A DNA stretch of 8,645 nt, from NCBI RefSeq assembly GCF_946481155.1, contig NZ_CAMLMK010000111.1, positions 1-8,645 of the forward strand, given 5' to 3'. Below the pieces are notes generated by a model. The model ran no database searches, was not told the origin of the DNA, and saw only the letters and a program-made list of their open reading frames with translations. The position numbers and the translations under genes are program-made. Shown here in pieces: positions 4,046-7,805 of this stretch; the first letter of the stretch is position 1, and each line of letters begins with the position of its first letter. This DNA comes from an uncultured Flavobacterium sp. GTDB taxonomy: Bacteria; Bacteroidota; Bacteroidia; Flavobacteriales; Flavobacteriaceae.

Positions 4046-5263
4046 ATGCTTTCAAAAGCCTTCACCCGCTACATCAATAATTTCAAAGGATTTTCACGCG
4101 AAATCTGGATACTTACACTGATTACTTTCATTAACCGTGCGGGCACAATGGTGCTCCCGTTTTTATCAAAATACCTTAAGGAAGATTTACACTTTTCCTA
4201 TAGTCAGGTAGGTACGATTATGGTTTGGTTTGGAATAGGCTCGATGTTGGGTTCATGGCTTGGAGGAAAGCTATCAGATAAGTTAGGATTTTACAGGGTG
4301 ATGATTTTTAGCTTATTTACAAGCGGAATCGCCTTCTTAATATTGCAATATATTACCAGTTTTGTCGGGCTTTGCATCGGAATGTTTTCGATTATGGTAG
4401 TTGCCGATATGTTTCGCCCTGCAATGTTTGTTTCACTGAGCGCCTACGCCAAGCCTGAAAACAGGACACGTGCGTTAACGTTAGTAAGACTTGCCATCAA
4501 TTTAGGATTTGCCGCCGGCCCTGCGATGGGTGGTCTTATAATTATGACTACCGGTTATAAAGGCTTATTCTGGGTGGATGGTGCTACCTGTATAGTAGCC
4601 ATACTGATTTTCTGGATGATGGTGAAAGAAAAGAAAAAATCACCTGAACAGAAATCCGAATTAGTTGCCACGTCTGACAAATCCGTATTTAAGGATACTC
4701 CGTTCTGGATATTCATGTTTATATGTATGACTACCGGTATTTTGTTTTTCCAATTATTTACAACGCTTCCGCTGTACCATAAGATTCAGTTCAATATGAC
4801 TGAATTCCAGAGTGGCTTACTTTTAATGATGAACGGACTGATTATTTTCTTTTCCGAGATGGCCGTTGTGGGTTATGTGGAACGAAAACAGATCGATAAG
4901 GTTCGGATAGTTATCTTAGGACTTGTCTTTATGATTGTCAGTATGTTCTTATTACTGATAAATACCTGGAGCGGTATTTTAATTATAATGATGCTGTTTA
5001 TGACTTTCGGTGAAATGTTTGCCTTTCCTTTCTCCAATTCGTTTGCCATGAGCAGGGCGCCTAAAGGCCATGAAGGCCGTTATATGGCTATTTTTACGAT
5101 GAGTTATAGTCTGGCACATATCCTGAGTTCTAAAGTAGGAATGGAAATTATCGGACATTGGGGCGGCTATCAGGTGAACTGGTTTTTTATGGGTTCGCTT
5201 GGGATTGTGGCATTAGCTGCTTCAGTATGGTTGCGAAAATTGCTTGCACAGGAAAATAATTAA
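4046..5263 (+). CDS. MFS transporter, multidrug-efflux type
   Basis: A 405-residue polytopic membrane protein with about twelve hydrophobic helices in two halves, separated by a charged cytoplasmic loop (KEKKKSPEQKSELVATSDKS, about 194-213). The MFS motif A is clear between helices 2 and 3: GGKLSDKLGFYR at 73-84, containing the conserved G, D and R. A motif-C-like GFAAGPAMGG lies at 154-163 in helix 5, a signature of proton-coupled antiporters, so export of small molecules is more likely than uptake. The substrate is unknown. Length is normal for the 12-helix DHA1-like group. The gene is divergent from the DUF1684 cluster (136 nt between starts). It has no obvious terminator after its stop, so transcription may continue into the blaI regulatory region. 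Confidence 0.85.
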   Translation: MLSKAFTRYINNFKGFSREIWILTLITFINRAGTMVLPFLSKYLKEDLHFSYSQVGTIMVWFGIGSMLGSWLGGKLSDKLGFYRVMIFSLFTSGIAFLILQYITSFVGLCIGMFSIMVVADMFRPAMFVSLSAYAKPENRTRALTLVRLAINLGFAAGPAMGGLIIMTTGYKGLFWVDGATCIVAILIFWMMVKEKKKSPEQKSELVATSDKSVFKDTPFWIFMFICMTTGILFFQLFTTLPLYHKIQFNMTEFQSGLLLMMNGLIIFFSEMAVVGYVERKQIDKVRIVILGLVFMIVSMFLLLINTWSGILIIMMLFMTFGEMFAFPFSNSFAMSRAPKGHEGRYMAIFTMSYSLAHILSSKVGMEIIGHWGGYQVNWFFMGSLGIVALAASVWLRKLLAQENN

Positions 5264-5316: not shown

Positions 5317-5372
5317 AACTATAAAATTAGTTACTTAACTATTTTTATAGTTGCGTAACTAAAAATATAGTT
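5317..5372. promoter_or_regulatory. Three tandem operator dyads, AACTA-N6-TAGTT, 20-bp period
   Basis: Three 16-bp dyads of identical layout occur at 5317-5332, 5337-5352 and 5357-5372. In each the arms AACTA and TAGTT are exact complements, and the six-base centre is A/T only. Starts are exactly 20 bp apart, about two helical turns, so dimers bound at each would lie on one face of the DNA. The second dyad overlaps the TTG -33 element and the third fills the spacer up to the -7 box of the blaI promoter. The location in front of a BlaI-family repressor gene suggests autorepression; binding itself is inferred. Confidence 0.75.
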
Positions 5373-5381
5373 GTAAGTTTG
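5351..5381 (+). promoter_or_regulatory. Promoter of the blaI-M56 operon: TTG-N20-TAAGTTTG
   Basis: TTG at 5351-5353 and TAAGTTTG at 5374-5381 (exact TAnnTTTG) are separated by 20 nt, close to the Bacteroidota standard. Transcription would begin near 5387, leaving a leader of about 120 nt before the ATG at 5510. Both elements lie in or against the operator dyads, as expected for a repressed promoter. Confidence 0.7.
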
Positions 5382-5405
5382 TTCTGTGCTTGAATGATAG
5401 CATTT

Positions 5406-5487
5406 GCGTTAGGGATAGAGGCGTTATCCTTTTGTGTAACGAAGTGAAACAAAAGATTTAGCCGAAAGCCCGACCCTTGGGGAACGC
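5406..5487 (+). ncRNA. Structured RNA element in the blaI leader
   Basis: This stretch of about 82 nt folds compactly by eye. A closing stem is GCGTT (5406-5410) with AACGC (5483-5487). Inside are a hairpin GGATA (5413-5417) with TATCC (5425-5429), a hairpin TTTTGT (5430-5435) with ACAAAA (5449-5454), and a small CC-CTTG-GG hairpin at 5474-5481. Its G/C-rich unpaired segments differ from the surrounding AT-rich DNA. From memory it resembles a structured element recurrent in Flavobacteria, possibly the Flavo-1 motif, but I could not verify this. It has no U-run after it and so is not a plain terminator. It could be a processed small RNA, a leader regulator, or a dispersed repeat. Confidence 0.6.
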
Positions 5488-5870: not shown

Positions 5871-7805
5871 ATGGAAGCTTTGGGAATCTATCTGTTAAAA
5901 GTAAGTGCCTTGATGGGCGTGTTCTATCTGGCTTACGTATTGTTCCTTCGAAAAGAAACGTTCTTCAATTCGAACCGATGGTTTTTATTAGCGGGATTAA
6001 TCACATCGTTAGTATTGCCTTTTATCACCTATACGAAAATTGTTTGGGTAGACCCGAGTCCGATAGTCTATGATTATAGCCAGACTCCAAGTGCCGACAA
6101 TTATATCGCTGCTGCTGAGCCCGCATTTGAAATCAACTGGTTTATGGTGGCGATGATAGGTTATGGGATTGGTATTTCGATTTTCTTTATCAAATTCGTA
6201 ATCGACTGTTATGCCATCAAGCAGATTATCGAAAAACCGAAGGCGATCAAGCGAAGTAATTTCTATCTGATTGACACTGAAAATGTGCAGTCGCCTTTCT
6301 CATTCTTCAATTATATTGTGTACAATTCGACTTTATTGCAGGAAGACGAACTGGAGAATATTTTAAACCACGAAAGAGTCCACAGCGCGCAGAAACATTC
6401 GCTGGACATGCTTTTGGCCCAGATATTCTGTATCCTGTTTTGGTTTAATCCGATTGTTTGGCTGTACAAAAAAGCCATTGCCCAAAACCTGGAATTCATC
6501 GCCGATGCAGAAGCTACAAAACAAACCGACGACCTGAAAGGGTACCAGAAAACATTATTAAAAGTAACAATGCAGTCCAACTGTATTGCAATCACCAATC
6601 CTTTTTATCAATCATTAATCAAAAAACGAATCGTTATGTTAAACAAAAACCAATCAGACAAGAGGAATTCCTGGAAGTATCTTGTGGTGCTGCCACTCTT
6701 AGCTTTCTTTATGTTCCAATTCCAGATGCGCGTTTTGGCACAGGAAAAATCAACGCCTAAAGTTGAAAATCAAGAAACCACCAAGAAAGTGATTTCAGTG
6801 GTTATCGACAAGAATTCTACAGATTCTGAAATCAAGAAAGACGCCGAAATGCTTAAAAGTGATTTTGGGGTAAATTTGAAAGTTTCAAAAGTGAAGCGAA
6901 ACAACAGCGGGGAAATTACCGGAATTAAAGTCGACTACAAAGACAAAGACGGGCGTAAAGGCTCAACCCAAATGCAAAGCGATTCTCCTATTCAGCCAAT
7001 CCGTTTCTTTAAAGAAATGGATGAAACCGGAAAAGCAACGGCAATCGGATTTGGCAGACCTACCGAAAGAGAAAGAAGATCCGGTCTTGCAGCGATTCCG
7101 CACATCAGACATCTTGGTGAGGACGGAGATGACATTGAAATCGTTATTGACGGGGACGACGAAGGTTTTGCCTGGACAGACAATTTTAATTTCGATTTCG
7201 ATATTGAAGTTCCCGAATTGCCTGAAATGCCTGAACTTCCTGAAGCTGCAGAAGCGCCTGAAGCACCTGAAGCAGCAGAAGCGCCATCGCTAACAAGAAC
7301 TCCGGGAGCTCCGAGATTACCTAAAATGAAAGGAAAGAATGTAGTCATCAAACAAAACGGCAACAAAAAAGAAGTTTGGGTTGACGGTGAAAAAGTAACT
7401 GAAAACATTTTAGGAGAACTGGATGAAGAAGGTATCAGCAATGTATTTGTTTATACCGACAAAGGCCCTAAAGGCCCTAAAGGTCCTAAAGGCCCAAAAG
7501 GTGTAAAAGGTTATACTTTCAGCGATGAGGACGGCAAAGTGATTATCTCTAAAAAAGAAATCGAAAAGATCACAAAAGAAGCGTTGGAAGATTCTAAAAT
7601 CCAGATGAAAAAAATGAGAAAACATCTGGAGGAAATGAGACCGGAAATGGAGAAAGCTAAAATCCGTATGCGTGAAGCACAACCTGAAATGGAACAGGCC
7701 CGTGAAGAAATGCGAAAAGCGAGAGAAGAAATGCAGAAAGCAAAAGAGGAATTGGAAAAAGCTAAAGCTGAGCTGGAAAAAACGAAATCTTCGCTAAACA
7801 AATAA
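5871..7805 (+). CDS. M56 (BlaR1-like) membrane metallopeptidase with unusual C-terminus
   Basis: A 644-residue membrane protein partnered with the BlaI-type repressor 4 nt upstream. The N-terminal part has helices at about 3-25, 36-54 and 91-113, followed by the cytoplasmic zinc-protease domain with HERVH (HExxH) at 167-171 and the third-ligand region NLEFIADA (E208, D212). A further helix lies at about 180-198, and the last at 268-290 ends in VLAQE. The remaining 350 residues should be periplasmic. They contain a mixed alpha/beta segment (about 305-395), an acidic region (416-446), a Pro/Glu/Ala-rich repeat (447-472), a second small domain (485-530), a collagen-like GPK run (531-547) and a long charged helix, probably coiled coil (559-644). 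No penicillin-binding (SxxK, KTG) sensor is present, so a beta-lactam signal is unlikely. By family knowledge it would relieve repression on sensing an envelope signal; the signal is unknown. Confidence 0.88.
   Translation: MEALGIYLLKVSALMGVFYLAYVLFLRKETFFNSNRWFLLAGLITSLVLPFITYTKIVWVDPSPIVYDYSQTPSADNYIAAAEPAFEINWFMVAMIGYGIGISIFFIKFVIDCYAIKQIIEKPKAIKRSNFYLIDTENVQSPFSFFNYIVYNSTLLQEDELENILNHERVHSAQKHSLDMLLAQIFCILFWFNPIVWLYKKAIAQNLEFIADAEATKQTDDLKGYQKTLLKVTMQSNCIAITNPFYQSLIKKRIVMLNKNQSDKRNSWKYLVVLPLLAFFMFQFQMRVLAQEKSTPKVENQETTKKVISVVIDKNSTDSEIKKDAEMLKSDFGVNLKVSKVKRNNSGEITGIKVDYKDKDGRKGSTQMQSDSPIQPIRFFKEMDETGKATAIGFGRPTERERRSGLAAIPHIRHLGEDGDDIEIVIDGDDEGFAWTDNFNFDFDIEVPELPEMPELPEAAEAPEAPEAAEAPSLTRTPGAPRLPKMKGKNVVIKQNGNKKEVWVDGEKVTENILGELDEEGISNVFVYTDKGPKGPKGPKGPKGVKGYTFSDEDGKVIISKKEIEKITKEALEDSKIQMKKMRKHLEEMRPEMEKAKIRMREAQPEMEQAREEMRKAREEMQKAKEELEKAKAELEKTKSSLNK
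7461..7511 (+). repeat. Tandem 9-bp repeats encoding Gly-Pro-Lys
   Basis: Four consecutive copies of a nine-base unit (close to GGCCCTAAA) plus a fifth degenerate copy (GGTGTAAAA) encode GPK four times and then GVK, residues 532-546 of the M56 protein. The copies are almost identical at DNA level, differing only at third positions, which implies recent expansion by slippage. Copy-number changes keep the reading frame. Confidence 0.85.

Follow-up and report, generated by a model that had tools for sequence, protein, structure and literature searches.

The closest described relatives of the array analysed here are the operators of the BlaI/MecI/CopY repressors, taken here as far as the available text of the cited reports extends. 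In these systems a dyad in a 16-bp frame overlies the repressor gene's own promoter, with TACA-NN-TGTA as the classical core (PMC5341023, PMC7253601), and the CopY operator consensus reads RNYKACANNYGTMRNY (PMC7253601). Bacillus licheniformis has three bla operators (OP1-OP3) between the divergent blaP and blaI-blaR1 genes, through which dimeric BlaI controls blaI-blaR1; the sensor there has a penicillin-binding domain (PMC3305447). In the Firmicute Clostridium thermocellum, DAP-seq and EMSA assigned GACTAT/GTCTAT half-sites in ordered pairs to BlaI_1845 and BlaI_0696, which autoregulate their own operons (PMC8457756). Our literature search, limited by its coverage of subscription papers, found no Bacteroidota BlaI operator; one apparent report (PMC12578637) was dismissed as a false match.

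In the window, the whole 8,645-nt stretch of Flavobacterium DNA analysed here, the pattern AACTA-N6-TAGTT occurs with zero mismatches exactly three times, at a spacing of 20 bp (Table 1). Loose single dyads are not enriched, as 8 with at most two mismatches were found against 5.96 expected. The letters also give a promoter, TTG-N20-TAAGTTTG, whose spacer is filled by the third dyad and whose TTG is overlapped by the second. The same three copies, period and promoter, with the last two copies on the -33 element and spacer, had been named in the original prediction. Because TAnnTTTG, the sigma-A -7 box of Flavobacterium, is placed at -12 to -5 (PMC9723704, available text), transcription is predicted to start near 5386, which would centre the dyads near -61, -41 and -21.

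Table 1. Features of the window (positions count from its first letter).
Feature	Position	Strand	Basis and remarks
MFS transporter gene	4046-5263		lies upstream of the blaI and M56 genes
Distal dyad D1, AACTATAAAATTAGTT	5317-5332	.	exact match; least well kept dyad, perfect in 15/51 aligned loci
Middle dyad D2, AACTATTTTTATAGTT	5337-5352	.	exact match; overlaps the -33 TTG; perfect in 45/51
-33 element, TTG	5351-5353	+	direct reading of letters; TTG here in 49/51 loci
Proximal dyad D3, AACTAAAAATATAGTT	5357-5372	.	exact match; within the promoter spacer; perfect in 51/51
-7 box, TAAGTTTG	5374-5381	+	direct reading of letters; one base past D3
Candidate Flavo-1 RNA element (RF01705), blaI leader	5395-5479	+	38 bits, E 3.7e-7, full length; just under the gathering score of 42
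blaI, BlaI/MecI/CopY-family repressor, 118 aa	5510-5866	+	PF03965, E 1.9e-32
M56 peptidase, BlaR1-like, 644 aa	5871-7805	+	PF05569, E 5e-17 over residues 129-257

The repressor matches PF03965 over residues 4-116 of 118 (112.4 bits, cut-off 22.6), is 97% identical to its F. enshiense counterpart and has kin of known structure in MecI (1sd6, E 1e-8) and BlaI (1sd4, E 3.7e-7). It scores below all named NCBIfam BlaI, MecI and CopY cut-offs, the best being BlaI_of_BCL (47.3 bits against 180); CopY_TcrY gives 47.2 against 121.95. The M56 protein matches PF05569 in part (62.5 bits, cut-off 31), carries its HExxH motif as HERVH at residue 167 and reaches 45.7 against the NCBIfam blaR1_generic cut-off of 400; its Pfam matches, taken to an E value of 10, include no penicillin-binding (transpeptidase) domain. 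In place of a sensor domain, the C-terminal part of this protein (window 7461-7805) has a repeat of the GPKG type and a long, charged stretch that resembles a coiled coil. MecI is cleaved at Asn101-Phe102 (PMC5341023, available text), a dipeptide that is not kept in the window repressor, which has Phe96-Phe97 at the aligned place. Given this Phe-Phe pair and an M56 protein without a penicillin-binding sensor domain, induction may work otherwise here.

Set beside the MecI, BlaI and CopY operators, the array shares their dyad frame and likewise overlies the promoter from which the repressor is expressed (PMC5341023, PMC7253601), and AACTA...TAGTT fits the outer ten positions of RNYKACANNYGTMRNY (RNYKA...TMRNY). 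Unlike the classical sites in the available text of those reports, its dyads lack the inner CA/TG of TACA-NN-TGTA, each arm in the window keeping only the outer T-A of TACA, and stand in tandem phased copies. AACTA had been predicted to differ from TACA/TGTA half-sites; the loss of the inner CA/TG agrees with this, but the contrast was overdrawn, the 16-bp frame and the outer CopY letters being common to both (PMC7253601). The number of operators recalls OP1-OP3 of B. licheniformis, although the placement between divergent genes and the penicillin-binding sensor of that system differ (PMC3305447). C. thermocellum BlaI offers ACTAT-type half-sites, two ordered inverted-repeat pairs upstream of its own operon and a small regulon; the BlaI_0696 repeats, however, are five nucleotides apart rather than N6, and the available part of the report contains neither AACTA sites nor the -33/-7 promoter geometry (PMC8457756). 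Judged by its letters and frame, the AACTA array is a variant of the known BlaI/CopY-type operators.

We then compared the window with orthologous loci, taking the best 78 among the matches listed in a protein search with its repressor. Fifty of these 78 loci have two or more dyads, in register at 20 bp, no further than 400 bp from blaI; TAnnTTTG stands behind the last dyad in all 50, at a spacing of exactly one base in 49. In 26 of the remaining 28, a double dyad lies 2.0-2.9 kb upstream, before the first blaI of a tandem operon (L007, L022, L023 and 23 others); there the array is 24-28 nt ahead of the first blaI in all 26 cases, and the second blaI follows ~2-3 kb behind the first without an array of its own. 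The two loci left over are L048, with no more than 43 bp of DNA ahead of blaI, and L075, where one and a half dyads lie 3.3 kb upstream and are followed by two beta-lactamase-family ORFs and then by blaI. Absence of the dyads from orthologous operons had been named as the outcome that would speak against an operator; instead, 50 of the 78 carry the array directly and 26 more through the tandem operon. In an alignment of 51 loci, the window included, with rows chosen for a D3 of at most one mismatch plus a -7 box, the arms of D2 and D3 are 94-100% kept, against roughly 40-60% across much of the flanks. The TTG of the -33 element falls within D2 and its linker in 49 of the 51, at a distance from the -7 box of 20 bases (36 loci) or 19 (12 loci). 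No more than 12 of these 51 loci have three perfect dyads, and the window is among the more perfect examples.

Starting from DNA alone, whole-genome pattern scans found the exact 36-bp double dyad in 101/150 genus, 116/299 family and 41/395 phylum genomes, samples that overlap in some genomes, and its backwards pattern in none of them. The rows listed in these scans gave 159 places, 12 of them (L121-L132) chosen by hand, for the most part in genomes that have two or more arrays; 157 had unique flanks. Among these 157, a BlaI ORF stands beside the array in 139; in 113 of these 139 a -7 box follows on the BlaI side at a distance of at most three bases, and in one it lies on the other side. The motif thus proved usable for finding targets, and the proposed genome scan returned phased pairs mostly beside BlaI genes. 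Eight of the other 18 arrays have blaI further along the transcription unit behind them (L141, L146, L144, L165, L374, L385, L388, L396), and one (L414) lies at a contig edge. No blaI was found near the remaining nine (L123, L125, L126, L134, L161, L379, L381, L382, L387), where the contig soon ends in L379 and L382. L134 is probably a chance array, because a -7 box is present on neither side of it. An exact array is missing from 49 genus genomes, and for 30 of them BlaI content was read as well. A BlaI search gave no hit in 18 of the 30, nothing but a distant paralogue (34-43% identity) in 4, and the orthologue (60-86%) in 8, in every case behind an array with substitutions.

Other BlaI genes of the phylum use other letters. 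We read the upstream DNA of 90 Bacteroidota BlaI genes, mostly the best-scoring among the matches listed, and added the window as a 91st row. AACTA dyads occur with a 20-bp period in 19 rows, with an 18-bp period in 6 and singly in 4; 22 rows have TTCTACA-NN-TGTAGAA, 10 TACTA-N6-TAGTA, 7 a TACGA type and 23 none of these. The 18-bp-period AACTA-N6-TAGTT clade comprises L213, L215, L229, L232, L235 and L239. The TTCTACA-NN-TGTAGAA paralogues share the phylum, the 16-bp frame and the 20-bp period with the window, even within the F. enshiense genome, but have classical letters and Thr or Ser in place of Asn at helix position 38. F. enshiense has a second BlaI gene (L243), which belongs to this TACA type and was found again by the TACA-type pattern alone; in the scan by DNA alone, the TACA-type array pattern (N6 spacing) was present in 22/247. 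A single genome can therefore combine classical with AACTA sites; the code is a property of the repressor clade. We accordingly rejected a phylum-specific code, since several operator codes coexist among the 90 genes. The original prediction of a Bacteroidota-specific code fails on both sides, as other clades of the phylum use TACA-NN-TGTA or other sites, one of them in F. enshiense, and GACTAT/GTCTAT half-sites are reported for C. thermocellum BlaI (PMC8457756). In this set of upstream regions, the AACTA lettering tracks a single branch of the repressor family and not the phylum as a whole. In five loci (L281-L285), TACA-type arrays lie directly ahead of small lipoprotein-like ORFs, ~140 aa long except for the 83 aa of L283, and BlaI ORFs are absent for 400 bp around; one of these genomes (G064) has a BlaI gene ~1.4 kb on.

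A tree was built with the recognition helix left out, from a short alignment that leaves many forks unresolved; on it, operator class takes 5 changes with the AACTA variants merged and 18 with seven groups kept apart, against a shuffled mean of 64.2. These and the helix counts of the classed set below retain as misfits L211 and L218 (labelled TACA by regular expression) and L203 (labelled TACGA), which by eye have CACTA/TACTA-type dyads; L190 was relabelled AACTA by hand, its array lying 208 bp upstream and past the 200-bp search, and L191 and L196, second genes of tandem operons, were left unlabelled for the tree analysis. Position 38 (window numbering) aligns with MecI Lys43, the third residue of the recognition helix, which spans Ser41-Asn56 in a MecI homologue (PMC5341023, available text). 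In the DNA-first sets, from which 6/87 AACTA and 6/22 TACA loci without an adjacent BlaI were dropped, this residue is Asn in 81/81 AACTA-linked and Thr or Ser in 16/16 TACA-linked repressors. The classed set, which overlaps the DNA-first sets and here omits the rows of class 'none', has Asn in 36/37 AACTA rows, Thr or Ser in 36/38 TACA rows, and Thr in 10/10 TACTA and 6/7 TACGA rows. The association of operator class with the recognition helix is new here and is confounded with clade. Asn38 was not accepted as a proven determinant: the tree offers only 2-3 independent pairs, so its role is a prediction rather than a demonstration.

Some arrays precede genes other than blaI. Beta-lactamase-family genes (PF00144) lie behind arrays in five loci, without a blaI found nearby in L123 and L161 and ahead of blaI in L144, L374/L416 and L075, the last with two PF00144 genes in a row; the proteins of L123 and L144, the two tested, are far under the NCBIfam class C beta-lactamase cut-off. 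Other first genes encode a MacB/FtsX permease (L165), GLPGLI proteins (L125, L126) and small exported proteins. An exported protein of ~327 aa recurs behind AACTA arrays (L417:2968-3948, L420:2930-3913, L418:3032-4018), with a similar ORF in L382; L418 and L382 were likened to it by eye, and the L417 and L420 proteins have no Pfam match. No wide regulon was found in F. enshiense, only the blaI array being phased among its 12 exact dyads, and the array-type regulon of this species seems to be its own blaI operon.

The leader between promoter and blaI holds a further feature. A Flavo-1 element stands at the same place upstream of blaI in other loci, reaching the cut-off in L197, L075 and L076 and missing it in L001 and L002. 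F. enshiense has 42 Flavo-1 matches, 38 of them over the cut-off; the match in its blaI leader is one of the weaker ones. In 46 of 50 relatives the ATG lies 25-47 nt past the last dyad; the candidate Flavo-1 element thus lengthens the window leader. In the F. psychrophilum transcriptome, Flavo-1 lies in either orientation to transcripts, with no function assigned in the available text (PMC9723704).

The 36-bp array was also found in 20 stretches of viral contigs (L332-L351), several of them near-copies of each other, against 0, 2 and 1 for three control patterns; none of the 20 arrays has an adjoining BlaI ORF. Five of the arrays stand just ahead of small ORFs of packaging type: in L336, L345, L346 and L348 the array is just upstream of a similar small ORF, followed in L345 by a large terminase gene, and in L341 it is upstream of a terminase small subunit. 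One viral contig has two arrays (L342, L346), and L332 has seven dyads. A DNA search with two of the contigs found no named relatives, and one viral terminase matched none of 250 records at 60% identity or more, the 12 matches listed reaching no higher than 29%. These arrays could be host-operator capture, the site of a phage regulator or a packaging site.

Several other readings of the window array were weighed against an operator of the adjoining repressor. Chance repetition in AT-rich DNA would suit the single exact dyads, which in F. enshiense are at chance level (12 versus 16 for the backwards pattern); the 9 outside its array are all unphased and 7 of the 9 lie inside ORFs of at least 100 aa. 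Phased pairs behave otherwise. Simulation of the 246-bp intergenic region with a first-order Markov model gave any dyad in 300 of 200,000 sequences and a phased pair in none, and the backwards pattern yielded no phased pair in any genome scan. Simulation and backwards control together leave a chance origin with next to no probability and rule it out for practical purposes, in line with the original argument from exact phasing. Another reading, which is very unlikely, takes TAGTT-N4-AACTA, a 14-bp register with two copies, as the true unit and the N6 dyads as its by-product. In many loci D1 has decayed on the left while its right half is kept, leaving TAGTT-N4-AACTA well conserved, yet the related clade of six genes retains AACTA-N6-TAGTT with a 2-base linker at its 18-bp period, which makes N6 the constant unit, and the N6 frame is the 16-bp CopY frame (PMC7253601).

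We consider it extremely unlikely that another regulator, an activator or global factor, reads the array in place of the adjoining BlaI protein. Such a factor would account for the viral arrays, none of 20 beside a BlaI gene, and for arrays before some genes without blaI nearby. It would not lead one to expect BlaI genes beside 139 of 157 arrays, nor the lack of an orthologue in 22 of the 30 array-less genus genomes and mutated arrays in the remaining 8, nor an operator class that tracks the BlaI clade.

The three dyads are thus, very probably, the operator of the downstream BlaI-family repressor, which would repress its own blaI-M56 operon until relieved by the M56 peptidase. Sequence, geometry, conservation and linkage to the AACTA-type repressor clade are direct observations, and from them we infer cooperative binding of the repressor, repression, and induction by way of M56. 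One repressor dimer would occupy each 16-bp AACTA-N6-TAGTT. On the two promoter-proximal dyads, covering the -33 element and the spacer, it would exclude RNA polymerase and so autorepress blaI-M56; the distal, less conserved D1 may serve as an auxiliary site. An envelope signal would lead the M56 peptidase to inactivate the repressor, inducing the operon. Since 20 bp correspond to ~1.9 helical turns, contact of the dimers on the same face is plausible, but the 18-bp period of another AACTA clade means that same-face phasing is no general rule.

A wider scenario, which we consider rather unlikely, would have BlaI paralogue clades split into codes (AACTA, TTCTACA, TACTA, TACGA) within one fixed frame, set largely by the third helix residue (Asn38 versus Thr/Ser, with positions 41, 45 and 46) and insulating the repressors within a cell; phages would then have captured the AACTA array on packaging or other promoters, placing these under the host repressor. 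For the family itself, the array is a concrete and highly specific candidate operator for the many BlaI-M56 systems of Bacteroidota that are still uncharacterised, and it finds blaI operons from DNA alone. It also names further candidate targets, among them beta-lactamase-family and other exported proteins, and the AACTA- and TACA-type repressors found in one genome would form a natural panel in which one fold is paired with different DNA letters.
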